5,156 nt of DNA from an uncultured Bacilli bacterium (GTDB lineage Bacteria; Bacillota_I; Bacilli_A; RF39; UBA660): contig CANPYU010000089.1 of NCBI GenBank assembly GCA_947588665.1, positions 1 to 5,156 of the forward strand, in the 5' to 3' direction. A model generated the notes under the pieces. The model made no database searches. It worked only from the letters and a program-made list of their open reading frames with translations, and was not told the origin of the DNA. Every line of letters starts with the position of its first letter. The stretch's first letter is position 1. Below, piece after piece: positions 1 through 5,156 of the stretch. A program made the position numbers and the translations under genes.

Positions 1-280
1 CCCTTACAAATTCATCTTCACTATCATGAGAATAATCCGCATTCATCTCCATAGGTAACTTATAAAACATCATATGCTCTGGAGTACATTCTACAATTTT
101 TCCTGTTTTAGTTGTTATTTTTACAACTCTACCTTCATAATTGCTTTCTATTAATTTTTCTGCAACCTCAAAATTAGTTTTACCAAAACCAACTCCACTT
201 AAAATTAAATCTCCATCTTTTACATTCTCAATCGCTTTAACCCCATCTGAGGTAACAACTTTTGTTCCTGGTATTAAACA
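1..280 (-). other. Intein N-terminal splicing domain (Hint fold) inside pcrA, truncated by the window edge
   Basis: From Cys245 of the pcrA frame the protein stops resembling a helicase and matches the start of an intein. Block A begins CLIPGTKVVTSDGVKAIENV and continues to KDGDLIL (residues 245-271), with the nucleophilic Cys1 and the typical GTxV, DG and GD positions. Block B is present as GKIVECTPEHMMF (304-316), with the TxxH pair at Thr310 and His313, which are intein residues 66 and 69. The insertion lies in helicase motif III between Gln244 and the expected Ser of GDxxQSIY, so Ser would be the +1 extein residue. Insertion at an ATP-site motif is the common habit of inteins. The last 24 residues seen, up to Arg337, show no LAGLIDADG motif. 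The C-terminal blocks F and G (His-Asn at the junction) and any homing endonuclease are outside the window, so the size and splicing competence are unknown. A hedgehog-like or bacterial intein-like domain is less likely, because the insertion sits precisely in a conserved helicase site. Confidence 0.9.
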
Positions 281-1012
281 TTGATTAACATCTCCCACTA
301 CAAATATATTTTTATGTTCATCTGCAAGCATCTTACTTAATTTATATTGTACTTCATTTGTATCTTGATACTCATCTATTAATATATATTTATAATGATC
401 TTGATACTTTTTTAAAATTTCACTATTTTCTTTAAATAATTTAACAGGTAAAGAAAGTAAATCATCAAAATCCACACTGTTGTTCCGTCTCAAAACTTTT
501 TCATACTCTTGATATATTGGAATAACTTGTTTTTCAATCGCTGTTACAAAAAACTTATCAATTTCCATATCTGTTAATAATTCATTTTTAATAAAACTAA
601 TTTTATTTCTAACATAATAAGGACTTATTTCTTTTGGGTCAACATTTAAATTTTTCATAATCCTTTTAATCAAACTTAAAATATCTTCACTATCAATAAT
701 TGTAAAATTCTTAGCCATACCTAAAGATTCTAAATTTTCTCTAATTACTTTAAGTCCAAAAGAATGAAAAGTTCCCACAAAAACATGATTATCAGGCACT
801 AAAACATTTAATCTTTCCCGCATTTCTTTAGCCGCTTTATTGGTAAATGTAATAGCTAGAATATTATAATCACTTATTCCCGTTTCCATTAAATGAGCTA
901 TTCTAGTTGTTAAAACTTTAGTTTTCCCAGATCCAGCTCCCGCAATAACTAAACAAGGACCATCTATATGATTTACTGCTTCTATTTGTCTTTCGTTTAA
1001 ATTACTATTCAT
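1..1012 (-). CDS. pcrA: PcrA/UvrD-type superfamily 1A DNA helicase, N-terminal part, interrupted by an intein
   Basis: This is an ATP-dependent 3'-5' DNA helicase of the UvrD/PcrA/Rep family, which acts in the cytoplasm in repair, replication restart and removal of RecA or stalled polymerase. The frame is open from ATG 1012 to the window edge, giving 337 codons. Visible motifs are the Q-motif LNERQIEAV (residues 5-13), Walker A GAGSGKT (25-31), motif Ia TFTNKAAKEM (55-64), motif Ib GTFHSF (80-85), DFDDL (181-185), Walker B LIDEYQDTN (211-219) and the start of motif III, VVGDVNQ (238-244). After Gln244, where the family has SIYRWRGA, the frame continues into an intein (Cys245 onward). Domains 1B, 2A and 2B lie beyond the window. 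I chose ATG 1012 because it gives the usual short leader before the Q-motif and follows a GGTGG site 5 nt upstream. An in-frame ATG at 1030 would add six residues (MKVVVV). Rep or UvrD are alternative names; PcrA is favoured by the Gram-positive setting. Confidence 0.93.
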   Translation of the reverse strand, partial: MNSNLNERQIEAVNHIDGPCLVIAGAGSGKTKVLTTRIAHLMETGISDYNILAITFTNKAAKEMRERLNVLVPDNHVFVGTFHSFGLKVIRENLESLGMAKNFTIIDSEDILSLIKRIMKNLNVDPKEISPYYVRNKISFIKNELLTDMEIDKFFVTAIEKQVIPIYQEYEKVLRRNNSVDFDDLLSLPVKLFKENSEILKKYQDHYKYILIDEYQDTNEVQYKLSKMLADEHKNIFVVGDVNQCLIPGTKVVTSDGVKAIENVKDGDLILSGVGFGKTNFEVAEKLIESNYEGRVVKITTKTGKIVECTPEHMMFYKLPMEMNADYSHDSEDEFVR

Positions 1013-1028
1013 TACTACCACCACTTTC

Positions 1029-1056
1029 ATTATATCAAAATATCCCTATCTTACAA
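1029..1056 (-). promoter_or_regulatory. Candidate SigA-type promoter for pcrA
   Basis: A perfect TATAAT (1034 to 1029) lies 16 bp from TTGTAA (1056 to 1051), which matches 4 of 6 bases of the -35 consensus. Transcription would start near 1022, leaving only about 10 nt before the ATG at 1012. That is short for a leader that should hold a ribosome binding site, and TATAAT is easily met by chance in such AT-rich DNA. pcrA may instead be read through from murI. Confidence 0.3.
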
Positions 1057-1067
1057 AGAATTAAACC

Positions 1068-1808
1068 TTATTTTTTGAACTTAATAACATTTAAAAACCT
1101 TTTTTCTTTTTCTAAATTATCAGTTGTATCTTTAAAAATAATTTTTTGTTTACCTTGAGATAAATTAATCATTTCTATCTTTCTTTTAAGTTCTTTCACA
1201 ACACCCTTATTACCATCATAAAAATTAACATTCCCTAAAACTTCTTTTATTTCTTCCTTTATTAAAGAATAATGTGTACAACCTAAAACAACATTAGAAA
1301 CACCTTTATAATTTTCTAAATGCTTTTTTAAATATTCTCTTATCTTTTCTCTCTCATTTTGTTCAATCAAATCAGCTAAACCTCTACACTCATAAATAAC
1401 AGTTTTATGATTATCATACTTATTATATAACTCTCTAAATTTTTTTGAATTAAGAGTTCCCTTTGTTGCTAATACCAAAGTTTTACTATCATAATTAAAA
1501 TCATACACCATTTTAATCGCTGGCTCTATTGCAATTATTGGCACCTTAAACTCTTGTCTTAAATATTCTTTACATATCGCACTCGCAGTATTACATGCTA
1601 TAACAATTATTTTACATCCTTGATCTACTAAATATTTACATACATTCCATGTAATATTTTTTAAATCTTCTTCACTTTTATCCCCATAAGGATTATTAAA
1701 TGAATCACTATAATATAAATATTGATAATTTGGAAGTTCTTTTAAAATTTCTTTTAAAACTGTGGCACCCCCAATTCCTGAATCAAATATCCCAATCATC
1801 TCATTCAT
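1068..1808 (-). CDS. murI: Glutamate racemase
   Basis: Cofactor-independent racemase that converts L-glutamate to D-glutamate in the cytoplasm for the second residue of the peptidoglycan stem peptide. At 246 residues it is slightly shorter than the usual 255-270. The Asp/Glu racemase signatures are all present: GIFDSGIGG near the N-terminus (residues 6-14, with Asp9 and Ser10), YSDSFNNPYG (33-42), the first catalytic cysteine in ACNTAS (71-76, Cys72), IEPAIK (94-99), ATKGT (114-118) and the second catalytic cysteine in GCTHY (176-180, Cys177, followed by His179). The start at 1808 is chosen over the in-frame ATG at 1799 because AGAGG sits 5 nt upstream of it. The gene starts 11 bases after the stop of the upstream unknown gene, so the two are probably co-transcribed and perhaps translationally coupled. 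No separate promoter is visible. The all-lysine end (KFKK) and shortened C-terminus look natural rather than truncated. Confidence 0.96.
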   Translation of the reverse strand: MNEMIGIFDSGIGGATVLKEILKELPNYQYLYYSDSFNNPYGDKSEEDLKNITWNVCKYLVDQGCKIIVIACNTASAICKEYLRQEFKVPIIAIEPAIKMVYDFNYDSKTLVLATKGTLNSKKFRELYNKYDNHKTVIYECRGLADLIEQNEREKIREYLKKHLENYKGVSNVVLGCTHYSLIKEEIKEVLGNVNFYDGNKGVVKELKRKIEMINLSQGKQKIIFKDTTDNLEKEKRFLNVIKFKK

Positions 1809-1813
1809 ATTAA

Positions 1814-1818
1814 CCTCT
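1814..1818 (-). promoter_or_regulatory. Ribosome binding site of murI
   Basis: AGAGG with 5 nt spacing to ATG 1808. It begins one base inside a second, adjacent in-frame TAG that follows the TAG stop of the upstream gene (tandem TAGTAG at 1822-1817). Ribosomes finishing the upstream gene would therefore stop right on this site, which favours coupling and decides for the upstream of the two possible murI starts. Confidence 0.75.
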
Positions 1819-1819
1819 A

Positions 1820-2347
1820 CTATTCTTTTTTTAAAACTCTTCTTAAATCATTATTAAGCTCATATTCTGCCTCTTTAAGTAAACTTAACTTATAATGTAT
1901 AACGGTCATTTGAGTTTCTAAACTTTTAAGTTCTTCTTTTAATAAATATTCATATTCTTTTATAATCATTTGCAATTCTTTTATATTTCTTTCTTCTTCT
2001 AATGTATAATCATTTAAATTATCTGCTATATCTTTAAAAGAATTTATTTTTAATCCCATAACATTATTAATAATAAAATTATATTCTAAATTTTGAATAT
2101 TTAAAATTGGTTTTAAACTATATAATACTTTTCCATCTTCTAAATGTATTTCATCAAAAAAATTTTCAAACTCTTCATGAACTCTTACATCCCAAAAATG
2201 TGAAGTAACTACATATATACCCTTTTCTTTTAAATTATTAACAAATATATTATATTCATTAATCGTAACAGTCTTTCTTCCATTTCTAGCATATAATGCT
2301 AAAATCGCATGAGCGATTAAAAAAGAAGGACTTAAACTTACTTCCAT
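1820..2347 (-). CDS. Unrecognised 175-residue protein with C-terminal coiled coil, in the pnp-murI operon
   Basis: I do not recognise this family. The frame is well supported: ATG 2347 has a strong GGAGG 6 nt upstream, and the gene fits tightly between pnp and murI (gaps of 16 and 11 bases) on the same strand. There is no signal peptide and no convincing membrane segment, so it is probably cytoplasmic. Residues 1-80 look like a compact mixed alpha/beta domain: a hydrophobic helix (about 8-20), a second helix (30-42), a short strand IYVV (44-47), an acidic helix around EEFENFFDEI (58-67) and a strand pair near 73-80. This order is reminiscent of a winged-helix fold, but that is only a guess. 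From about residue 115 to the end the chain is rich in Glu, Lys and Leu with heptad-like spacing, which suggests a long helix or coiled coil and oligomerisation. It ends with the basic RRVLKKE. The position next to pnp invites a role in RNA metabolism, but the sequence itself does not show one. Confidence 0.85.
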   Translation of the reverse strand: MEVSLSPSFLIAHAILALYARNGRKTVTINEYNIFVNNLKEKGIYVVTSHFWDVRVHEEFENFFDEIHLEDGKVLYSLKPILNIQNLEYNFIINNVMGLKINSFKDIADNLNDYTLEEERNIKELQMIIKEYEYLLKEELKSLETQMTVIHYKLSLLKEAEYELNNDLRRVLKKE

Positions 2348-2353
2348 GTCTTT

Positions 2354-2358
2354 CCTCC
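2354..2358 (-). promoter_or_regulatory. Strong ribosome binding site of the unknown gene
   Basis: A full GGAGG core (in TGGAGGAAAGAC) stands 6 nt before ATG 2347, inside the 16-base gap after the pnp stop codon. It is the main evidence that the downstream frame is a translated gene. Confidence 0.85.
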
Positions 2359-2363
2359 ATTTT

Positions 2364-4523
2364 TTATTTTTTATTTTTATTTTCTTTATTATCTTTCTTT
2401 GGTAAAGCTGCTTTTCTCGATAAATTTAAACGCCCTCGATTATCATACCCTAAAGCTTTAACCATTATTTTATCTCCAAGACTTACTATATCTTTTGGTT
2501 TATCAACTCTCTTATTATCAAGTTCCGAAACGTGTACTAAACCTTCACATCCTGGCCATAATTCTACAAAACAACCAAAATCTTCAATTTTTACTACTTT
2601 ACCAGTATATACAGCATTTATCTCTACCTCACGCACAACTTCCTCAATCATTTTTCGCGTTTTAGCAATAATTTCGGCATCTTGATGATATATAATAACT
2701 CTTCCATCATCCTCTAAATCAACTTTAACTGCATCTTTATCATTAACTGTTTTAACATTGCTAGCTTCCAAAATAATTTTAGTAATCATTTCTCCACCCC
2801 GACCAATAACATCCTTAATCTTTTCTGGATTAATTTTAAATGTATCAATCTTTGGAGCATATTTACTAAGATTTTTACGTGGTTCACTAATACAATTACC
2901 CATTACATCCAAAATTTGCAATCTTGCTTTTTTAGCCTGAGCTAAAGCTTCCTTTAATATTTTTTCAGTAACTCCTTTAATCTTAATATCCATTTGAAGT
3001 GCACAAATACCCTTTTTAGTACCTGCTACTTTAAAGTCCATATCTCCCATATGATCTTCCAAACCTTGAATATCGGTCAAAATAGTGTATTTTTTACTAT
3101 TTTCATCTTGGATAAGACCCATCGCAATCCCTGCAACAGGAGCTTTAATTGGCACTCCTGCTGCCATTAAAGAAAGACATCCTGCACAAATAGTTGCTTG
3201 ACTGCTAGATCCATTACTTTCTAATATTTCACTAACTACTCTTATTGTATAAGGAAAATCTTCTTCACTTGGAATTACCTGTGATAAAGCTCTTTCTCCA
3301 AGCGCTCCATGACCAATTTCGCGCCTTCCTGGAGCTCCATATCTTCCTGTTTCTCCTACTGAAAAAGCTGGAAAATTATAATGTAACATAAATCTCTTAG
3401 AATCTTCTAAACCGAGTCCATCAAGTATTTGATGTTCTCCAATTGCTCCTAAAGTAGTAGTAGCAAGACTCTGTGTTTCTCCTCTAGTAAAAACTGCTGA
3501 TCCATGGGTTCTTGGCAGTAAATCTATTTCACAAGATAAAGGTCTTATTTCATCCATTGCTCTTCCATCTGGTCTAATCTTTTTATCTGTAATCAATTTT
3601 CTAACTTCTTGAGCCTCTATTAAATTAACTATCTTTTCTACTTGTTTAATTTTTTCTGAAGCATCTTCCCATTCAGCATAAACTTCTGTAAAATTCTCAA
3701 TTGTTCTTGTTTTAACTTCATCAATTGCCGCATATTTTTCCAACTTATCTTTAATTTGAATTGCTTTTAACATATCACTCGTTGCAAACTCTTCTACCGC
3801 CGCTTTAACTTGAGGATCTAATTCTGCCTTTGCAAGCTCAATTTTTTCTTGACCTATCTCATCAATAATATCTTGTTCAAACTTGCATAATACTTTTATT
3901 TGTTCTTCTCCAAACATTAAAGCTTCAAGCATTTCCTTTTCACTTAACTCCTGAGCCCCAGCTTCCACCATACATATTGCATCTTTAGTACCTGCGACAG
4001 TTAAAGAAAGAGTACTTTCTTCAACTTGTTTAGCAGTTGGATTAATAACTAACTCTTTTCCAATTTTTCCTACCATCACACCTGCAACCGGACCATCAAA
4101 AGGAATTTTAGATATTCCTAAACATAAACTTGTCCCAAATAAAGCGGCCATTTCTGGACTATTATCAGGATCTACAGATAAAACTGTATTAACAACTTGT
4201 ATTTCTTGTCTTAAATTCTCATCAAACATTGGTCTAATAGGTCTATCAATTAAACGAGCAGCAAGTGTTGCCGCATCACTAGGTCTTCCTTCTCTTTTAA
4301 TAAATCCTCCAGGAATCTTACCTACTGAATAAAGTTTTTCTTGATATAAAACTTGTAAAGGAAAAAAATCCTGTTCTACAACTTCTTTACCCATCACACA
4401 AACTGATAATACTACAGTATCTCCATATCTAACAAGTACTGCCCCATCTGTTTGTTTCGCTAATTCTCCAGTCTCAACAATCAAATCTCTTCCTAAAAAA
4501 TCTAACTTAAATACCTTTTTCAT
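2364..4523 (-). CDS. pnp: Polyribonucleotide nucleotidyltransferase (polynucleotide phosphorylase)
   Basis: Phosphorolytic 3'-5' exoribonuclease that degrades RNA using phosphate, releasing nucleoside diphosphates, and can run in reverse to add tails. It acts as a ring-shaped trimer in RNA turnover. The 719 residues are normal for the family and all domains are present, numbered from ATG 4523: first RNase PH domain (about 1-135) with [10 protein letters not shown] (72-81); helical linker (about 140-310); second, catalytic RNase PH domain with FTRGETQSL (345-353), SNGSSSQ (436-442) and the [14 protein letters not shown] segment whose Asp484, Asp490, Asp494 and Asp496 include the metal-binding acids; KH domain with GRGG (574-577); S1 domain (about 628-705); and a lysine/asparagine-rich tail. 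An in-frame GTG at 4553 would add ten residues, but it lies only about 3 nt from the predicted transcript start and has no ribosome binding site. ATG 4523 follows GGTGAT (4532-4527), which pairs with the 3' end of 16S rRNA. It lies downstream of rpsO, a widespread arrangement, and leads the unknown gene-murI unit. Confidence 0.98.
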
Positions 4524-4562
4524 TACATCACCATTTTCTTTCAAGTATATCACATTAATTTA

Positions 4563-4591
4563 ATTATACAATTCAAACTATTTTCTGTCAA
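4563..4591 (-). promoter_or_regulatory. Full-consensus SigA promoter driving pnp and downstream genes
   Basis: TTGACA (4591 to 4586) and TATAAT (4568 to 4563) match the consensus at all twelve bases with the optimal 17-bp spacer. Transcription should begin near 4556, giving a leader of about 33 nt before ATG 4523. The -35 box lies two bases beyond the U-tract of the rpsO terminator, so pnp appears to have its own strong promoter as well as any read-through from rpsO. Confidence 0.88.
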
Positions 4592-4593
4592 TC

Positions 4594-4623
4594 AAAAAAA
4601 GACACCTAAAATCTAGAGTGCCT
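4594..4623 (-). terminator. Intrinsic terminator after rpsO
   Basis: The RNA folds as AGGCAC, a bulged U, CUA, loop GAUUU, then UAG and GUGUCU, with one G-U pair, and is followed at once by a run of seven U (4600-4594). The first stem base is the last A of the rpsO TAA stop codon, so a ribosome at the stop could cover the stem. It should end most rpsO transcripts while allowing some read-through into pnp. Confidence 0.85.
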
Positions 4624-4892
4624 TATTTTCTTAAACCTAACTTACTAATTACATTTCTATAACTAACAACATCATTATCTTTCAAATAAGCAAGTAATTT
4701 TCTTCTCTTACCAACTTTCATTAAAAGTCCACGATTTGAATGATAATCATGTTTATGTACTTTTAAATGTTCTGTTAAATCATTGATTTCATGAGTTAAA
4801 ATTGCAATTTGTACTTCTGTCGAACCACAATCTTTATCATTTTTACCAAACTCTTTAACTAATTTAGCTTTTGTCTCTTTAGAAACTGCCAT
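4623..4892 (-). CDS. rpsO: 30S ribosomal protein S15
   Basis: Small-subunit primary binding protein that contacts the three-way junction of helices 20-22 of 16S rRNA and allows S6/S18 to bind. The 89 residues match the usual length exactly. Family positions visible include the [10 protein letters not shown] segment (21-30), the RNA-binding loop [15 protein letters not shown] (42-56) with the expected His42, Asp49 and Ser52, and the basic KRRKLLAYL stretch (62-70). The frame stays open further upstream to 4973, but those codons (rich in Leu and Arg) are leader sequence read through. ATG 4892, encoding MAVSKE, is the canonical start and is preceded by GAGGAGG with 7 nt spacing. The gene has its own promoter, a leader of about 80 nt with regulatory features, and a terminator, so it can form a monocistronic message. 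Autoregulation by S15 is known in several bacteria and is plausible here. Confidence 0.98.
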
Positions 4893-4971
4893 TATTATTC
4901 CTCCTCTTCTATCTAATCGGTTTAATCTAAGTAATAATTTAAGGAGTAAATTAAAACTTGGAATAAACTTC
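4893..4971 (-). promoter_or_regulatory. rpsO 5' leader with putative S15 autoregulatory structure
   Basis: The leader is about 80 nt from the predicted transcript start to ATG 4892. It contains a perfect 7-bp stem (UAAUUUA, 4953-4947, with UAAAUUA, 4941-4935) that closes a five-base CUCCU loop (4946-4942). The loop is complementary to AGGAG (4905-4901) in the rpsO ribosome binding site, so a loop-to-site pseudoknot is possible. Upstream, UUAUUCC (4966-4960) is complementary over 7 bases to GGAAUAA (4901-4895), which runs from the binding site towards the start codon. S15 is known to repress its own message through leader structures in E. coli and in bacilli. That this leader binds S15 is inference. 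Confidence 0.55.
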
Positions 4972-4977
4972 AATTAC

Positions 4978-5006
4978 ATTATATTATAAACTTATTTAAA
5001 AATCAA
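4978..5006 (-). promoter_or_regulatory. SigA-type promoter of rpsO
   Basis: TTGATT (5006 to 5001, 4 of 6 bases of consensus) is separated by 17 bp from a perfect TATAAT (4983 to 4978). A second, overlapping TATAAT sits at 4988 to 4983 but with a short 12-bp spacer. Transcription should start near 4971. The promoter lies in the gap after the upstream gene's terminator, as expected for an independently expressed rpsO. Confidence 0.72.
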
Positions 5007-5068
5007 CTAAAACTTAATTATTCACACTTTTAATAGTTACAATTCACAGCTAAATGTTAAGGCATGCC

Positions 5069-5092
5069 AAAAAGCAACAAATTTATTCGTTG
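5069..5092 (-). terminator. Terminator overlapping the stop codon of the upstream gene
   Basis: CAACGAA (5092-5086) pairs with UUUGUUG (5081-5075) over 7 bp, including one G-U pair, around a UAAA tetraloop that contains the TAA stop codon. It is followed by C and five U (5073-5069). On the plus strand the same hairpin is followed by seven T (5092 is followed by the run at 5093-5099), so it could in principle work both ways. The stem is AT-rich and probably only moderately strong. Confidence 0.6.
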
Positions 5093-5156
5093 TTTTTTTG
5101 AAGCTTATTTTCTAGTATTTCTTCAATTGTATAGGGATTTCCATTTAATAATCGTA
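5083..5156 (-). CDS. C-terminal 23 codons of an unidentified protein
   Basis: The frame enters from the right edge and ends at TAA 5085-5083. It reads RLLNGNPYTIEEILENKLQK followed by NNE, a normal-looking amphipathic helical C-terminus. The coding call rests on this composition, on the strand shared with all other genes, and on a terminator placed exactly at the stop. In Bacillus the gene before rpsO is the riboflavin kinase/FAD synthetase gene, so that is one candidate, but these residues are too few for me to assign a family. Confidence 0.6.
   Translation of the reverse strand, partial: RLLNGNPYTIEEILENKLQKNNE

Follow-up and report, generated by a model that had tools for sequence, protein, structure and literature searches.

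The DNA analysed here, called the window throughout, is a stretch of 5,156 nucleotides from an uncultured Bacilli bacterium (GenBank assembly GCA_947588665.1, contig CANPYU010000089.1, positions 1 to 5,156), with a G+C content of 28.6%. Its minus strand encodes rpsO, pnp, an open reading frame (ORF) of unknown family, murI (our own name for an ORF with a Pfam Asp/Glu racemase match) and the first 343 codons of pcrA, as assigned with Pfam and NCBIfam profiles. Here we report that the partial pcrA frame (1030..2, minus strand, 343 aa) runs without a break from helicase motif III, VVGDVNQ, into an intein at codon 251 (280-278), as a first-pass annotation of this DNA had claimed. We consider it highly probable that what begins in PcrA motif III is a mini-intein, which would have derived from a mobile, nuclease-bearing intein by deletion.

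An intein in motif III of pcrA

The NCBIfam PcrA profile TIGR01073 matches residues 9-251 of the window protein at 301.6 bits, below its full-length cut-off of 911.2 because the window's PcrA is partial, and Pfam UvrD-helicase scores 269.3 bits; the frame starts with a Met at 1030, and a further in-frame Met lies at residue 7. From Cys1 onwards, the intein_Nterm profile TIGR01445 scores 34.4 bits on 93 aa (E 3.4e-8, cut-off 24.5), and blocks A and B are present as first described, with CLIPGTKVVTSDG, DGD and TPEH all seen in the window intein. Intein or intein-like chains of solved structures also match this piece (best E 6.8e-6). Pfam Intein_splicing gives 20.9 bits on the half-intein alone, below its cut-off of 35.8, and 53.6-56.4 bits on three complete relatives.

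The window ends 93 residues into the intein, and the C-terminal half of its own copy lies beyond. Because of this, the downstream checks were run on relatives; the N-terminal half of the helicase host was read in the window and the C-terminal half in relatives only. A search of the intein piece against one genome from each species returned three relatives (L001, L002 and L003; 73-83% identity over the matched stretch), all in metagenome-assembled genomes titled uncultured Bacilli bacterium, isolates Lapin-..., a name from which alone we would guess a rabbit source. In L001, L002 and L003, respectively, PcrA and intein form a single open frame of 934, 939 and 1057 aa, and the intein, of 240, 239 and 361 aa, ends in His-Asn; after it come CIYAFRGANFRN and the remainder of PcrA, 449-450 residues altogether. 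The C-junction reads HN/CIYAFRGAN in all three (a slash marks a splice junction here and below), so that the +1 residue is Cys and not the Ser that had been expected; across 66 homologous proteins, +1 is Cys in 34, Ser in 27 and unread in 5. Judging from Cys1 and TxxH in the window and from His-Asn and Cys+1 in the relatives, the intein most likely belongs to class 1.

Occupied and empty sites occur within one genus. Among 36 genomes searched from the genus of L003, 6 carry the intein, 25 have an uninterrupted site and 5 lack readable sequence there; 23 of the empty sites were read directly, with the Gln of motif III followed by S or C, and 2 were inferred from adjoining matches. The family at large yielded a full-length intein of this kind in 4 of 291 genomes drawn from it, L003 among them. 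Relatives and empty sites together bear out that the intein sits directly behind the motif III Gln and ahead of the following PcrA residue; it is inserted with codon precision and occurs sporadically. With motif III split in this way, it is a sound inference that unspliced PcrA would be inactive.

The first-pass annotation had itself raised the prospect of an assembly chimera at 280; an intein half would then have been wrongly joined to pcrA there, as could also happen through a sequencing artefact. Only 93 codons lie between the junction and the window end, which would suit such an error, but identical junction, gene and frame recur in three separate assemblies, 53 of the 66 homologous proteins have both junctions at the site and the other 13 have one, and the succession rpsO, pnp, murI, pcrA (from Pfam and ORFs, with small extra ORFs in some) is common to the window, L001 and L003. 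The same junction in independent assemblies and the empty sites in congeners therefore rule a chimera out, and we give this explanation practically no credence.

Coordinates are collected in Table 1. Between pnp and murI, the window has a 175-aa ORF (1820-2347, minus strand) with no NCBIfam match and one Pfam match below cut-off (E 0.028). The corresponding interval contains two ORFs in L001 (190 and 146 aa) and in L002 (197 and 159 aa), and none of at least 80 aa in L003.

Table 1. Parts of pcrA and of its intein in the window
Feature	Positions	Strand	Basis
pcrA N-extein, residues 1-250, ending in motif III VVGDVNQ	281..1030	-	TIGR01073, Pfam UvrD-helicase
Cys1, first intein residue; N-splice junction between 281 and 280	278..280	-	Cys1 in 52/52 full and 5/5 other mini-inteins aligned
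Intein N-terminal 93 aa (blocks A, B, linker), cut by window end	2..280	-	TIGR01445 34.4 bits; alignment
Block B TPEH, intein residues 66-69	74..85	-	Thr66 and His69 in 52/52 full and 5/5 other mini-inteins
Apparent deletion scar: the counterpart of L003 residue 194 comes immediately after intein residue 80	40..41	-	tail ADYSHDSEDEFVR against L003
Putative remnant of the linker that comes after the nuclease in full-length relatives	2..40	-	tail alignment

A nested nuclease-like domain and its probable loss

Full-length relatives (353-374 aa) contain a domain nested between the two halves of the Hint splicing domain, which we read as a divergent GIY-YIG nuclease. In an alignment of 52 full inteins, Tyr85, Gly97 and Glu142 are present in all 52 and Arg117 in 50; the assignment of these columns to GIY-YIG motifs is our own. 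The invariant Tyr, Gly and Glu hold across inteins down to 31% identity to L003. Structure matches in a viral library carry the names group I intron, GIY-YIG and homing endonuclease (E 1.4e-3 to 1.5e-2), and the homing endonuclease family phrog_314 is weakly matched (0.019) in 2 of 7 domain sequences. The structure alignments took in 49 and 46 of the 66 proteins.

Several results weigh against a nuclease. The Pfam GIY-YIG family (PF01541) is matched only weakly, with a best E of 0.0079 in 2 of 7 domain sequences, and its profile is absent at E 0.1 from nine chosen whole proteins. No GIY-YIG structure is among the matches listed in the PDB searches (the best 50, which the other inserted domain fills). 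Those matches in the viral library that bear the GIY-YIG name score low by TM (0.24-0.29 of the query), and their root-mean-square deviations are large. Such scores are what a purely structural insert, with no nuclease activity, might give. We find this unlikely, given the residues that stay invariant at such low identity, the GIY-YIG names among the viral structure matches and the way this part has repeatedly been lost from inteins that otherwise persist, which would be hard for a part needed in folding.

The window copy appears to be a mini-intein that has lost this putative nuclease. Its last 13 residues align in frame with residues 194-206 of L003, just past the nuclease (score 30, next best 19), and 27 of the 40 tail nucleotides are identical to L003 and to L020 at the post-nuclease place. 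Shuffled tails did equally well anywhere in 0 of 2000 cases for L003, 4 of 2000 for L020, 20 of 2000 for L021 and 8 of 2000 for L022. As the tail resumes after the nuclease, the window lacks some 113 codons, which in L003 contain the nuclease, and this makes its copy a mini-intein. The second-best place for the tail (21 of 40 nucleotides), in the C-terminal Hint part, likewise lies beyond the nuclease and would give a still shorter intein; the nearest relatives, L001 and L002, keep the second inserted domain, which speaks against it. The nuclease is thus absent at its place in the window, although a nuclease elsewhere, in the C-terminal half beyond the window, is conceivable.

Phylogenies are consistent with repeated loss. 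In the PcrA tree, which takes in 29 of 34 sequences (five do not reach far enough at the site), the nuclease-bearing L003 stands next to a clade (100/98) made up of the window, L001 and L002. The intein tree, built on 53 of the 66 proteins (the 13 without both junctions being left out) with four loci and the window, needs four changes, read as losses, to account for the nuclease-less state, one of which separates the near neighbours P0038 and P0010. Complete mini-inteins measure 231-240 aa, and in five of five a stretch of 93 residues from the second inserted domain is retained.

A working PcrA is needed by the cell. This need, the catalytic residues of the relatives and the constraint on the window half (ratio of nonsynonymous to synonymous substitution rates, dN/dS, 0.085-0.147 over 75 codons) suggest that the window intein splices. 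A point on the other side is that the C-terminal half is out of view, so that its His-Asn, like its ability to splice, is predicted from relatives. Alternatively, the intein might be dead or decaying and unable to splice, and the pcrA around it a pseudogene or a spare copy. This would accord with the hidden half and the missing nuclease, but Cys1, Thr66 and His69 are kept, the constraint is as above, the N-extein is open and 91-93% identical to L001 and L002, and all five other mini-inteins keep His-Asn. We therefore judge decay very improbable.

Loss of the nuclease from a copy whose splicing half stays constrained could also mark a domesticated regulatory intein, in which conditional splicing, for example under redox control, would switch PcrA on under stress. 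The retained stretch of the second domain in all complete mini-inteins fits this idea, as does an extra Cys in the ending CVHN, found in 5 of 5 mini-inteins and 14 of 52 full inteins, and conditional splicing is reported for mycobacterial DnaB inteins (PMC6195587, PMC7360933). Yet constraint is equally expected if PcrA simply needs splicing, and the extra Cys lies at the C-junction, outside the window, and may only follow lineage. We hold a regulatory role to be improbable.

Distribution and mobility of the intein family

The PcrA motif III site is used by one intein family. Protein searches with the L003 intein returned 65 proteins and those with the L001 intein 21, one of them new, which gives the total of 66; both covered only proteins of a set length range and may have missed hosts that are longer or shorter. 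Source names include Elusimicrobiota, Haloimpatiens, Marinisporobacter, Crassaminicella, Geosporobacter, Caldilineaceae and Chloroflexota, and some of these genera we take to be Clostridia. The earlier remark that inteins are uncommon in housekeeping genes of Bacillota understated the case for this site, which has at least one junction in each of the 66 proteins and is occupied in 6 of 31 readable congeners.

Viral contigs encode the inserted domain at five loci, all inside UvrD-family helicase ORFs (by Pfam for four; the ORF of L051 is the same as that of L050), with three at the usual motif III site and two three codons further downstream. The latter pair, L050 and L051 (5008-8010), share the same UvrD-family ORF, with the junctions QNVY/C...HN/CFRG. 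Among 50,697 phage records, 65 match the intein, 38 of these over at least 80% of it. Junctions were read in 4 of the 65: SPO1 and two Escherichia phages have the intein in UvrD at the same site, and one Streptococcus phage has it in an adenine methyltransferase. This last locus (L055, 1625-3736), from a Streptococcus suis phage, encodes a related intein in which a comparable nuclease-like segment, TYLMRKGDRWRVGIT, is seen, and the nested domain may therefore not be confined to helicases.

Other arrangements also turned up. The predicted protein P0064 joins PcrA and an intein N-terminal part to a domain listed as PF04079 (ScpB), and is either a chimera or a rearrangement. Three adjoining open frames of 578-596 aa (L017-L019; G223 contig 15, 15634-19599) each have 34% identity to the intein N-terminus over 74 aa. 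On one viral contig (L005, 3-7575), a ribonucleotide reductase ORF apparently has two inteins and an adjoining actin-like (Volactin) ORF a third, with matches to LAGLIDADG_3.

Two observations argue for mobility. An approximately unbiased (AU) test rejects the seven intein-bearing members, including L022, as one PcrA clade (p 0.003). Between L001 and L002, 11 of 210 same-residue codons differ in the intein and 145 of 649 in the exteins (p 1.2e-9), and comparisons with the window reveal no such drop (15/76 in the intein vs 49/223, and 17/72 vs 49/232). The stretch of low divergence roughly coincides with the intein, and nucleotide identity remains elevated over about 400 bases downstream. This pattern is best explained if the intein recently passed between the L001 and L002 lineages, by transfer or by conversion. 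Both copies are nuclease-less, so the donor would have been still nuclease-bearing or general recombination would have been at work.

Set against mobility are three points. Without L022, one clade of intein-bearing congeners is not rejected (p 0.229), and the distribution may therefore be partly vertical with losses. One 30-codon block inside the intein lacks the drop between L001 and L002 (6/28), and the probable exchange concerns two copies that are both nuclease-less.

Based on these observations, we propose that the ancestral intein was mobile and consisted of a Hint splicing domain whose two halves enclosed a GIY-YIG-type nuclease and a second domain. The nuclease would cut pcrA or uvrD alleles that lack the intein, close to the conserved codons of motif III, and repair off an intein-bearing allele would copy the intein into the cut one. 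The host protein would be made as a precursor from which the intein excises itself, joining VVGDVNQ to CIYAFRGAN and giving normal PcrA. In the window lineage, an in-frame deletion of about 113 codons would have removed the nuclease, and the splicing-only intein that is left should no longer home by itself. More tentatively, and with somewhat less than even confidence, we suggest that motif III of UvrD/PcrA-type helicases is the home of an undescribed intein class in several bacterial phyla and phages, in which a nested GIY-YIG domain drives mobility, the nuclease is repeatedly deleted while the second domain is kept, and leftover splicing-only inteins are perhaps used in helicase control.

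If this is correct, inteins would gain a further nuclease family, GIY-YIG, carried within continuous inteins at one helicase motif across Bacillota, Chloroflexota, Elusimicrobiota and phages. Since empty, full and nuclease-less alleles lie side by side in one genus, the homing cycle is directly testable, as is the question of whether nuclease-less inteins are kept for a use.

Comparison with known systems

Helicases were correctly named as known intein hosts in the first-pass annotation, which left open whether the site had been described. UvrD/Rep/PcrA are listed as hosts in a review (PMC5874633), with inteins there at the P-loop and not, as here, at motif III. The site itself is found in phages: depositors of the SPO1 (FJ230960) and JohannJBalmer (MZ501084) records already annotate UvrD inteins, and these share host family and site with the window, with the junctions VGDDDQ/C...HN/SMYSFRG and VGDEFQ/C...HN/CIYQFRG, respectively. 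The CampHawk announcement gives an intein in the UvrD helicase at Cys292-Asn576 (PMC3868849), alike in host family. These annotations and the review's host list mean that host and site are not new as such. Full-length relatives and the two phage inteins have nuclease-like segments at the same place (..VYLM..DFRVG in SPO1 and ..VYLM..GFRVGIT in JohannJBalmer), and the phage inteins are 24.6% (residues 1-242 only) and 27.8% identical to that of L003. They differ from the window in sitting in phage helicases and not in bacterial PcrA, and the window copy is without a nuclease.

Homing nucleases of inteins are most commonly LAGLIDADG (PMC7765530), and a 2006 paper stated that the GIY-YIG superfamily had not been found in inteins (PMC1564403). 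Within the open-licence literature searched, we found no description of an intein that contains a GIY-YIG nuclease. Split inteins have reportedly yielded a new endonuclease family (Dassa 2009). An intein associated with a GIY-YIG nuclease is the AceL NrdHF split intein (PMC7891396), where the GIY-YIG ORF is a separate one between the halves of a class 3 split intein, whereas here the putative nuclease lies inside one continuous intein.

Solved mini-inteins such as NpuDnaB and gp41-1 have chains of 127-142 aa, against 231-240 aa in the complete relatives of the window type, which are larger because the second inserted domain stays behind. GIY-YIG homing endonucleases of group I introns, free-standing phage genes and the T5orf172 subfamily (PMC1564403, PMC10448857) have the same order of Tyr, (x)IG, Arg and Glu as the full-length relatives; the domain described here differs from them in being nested in an intein and in having Arg at the first Tyr of YIG in 49 of 52 sequences.
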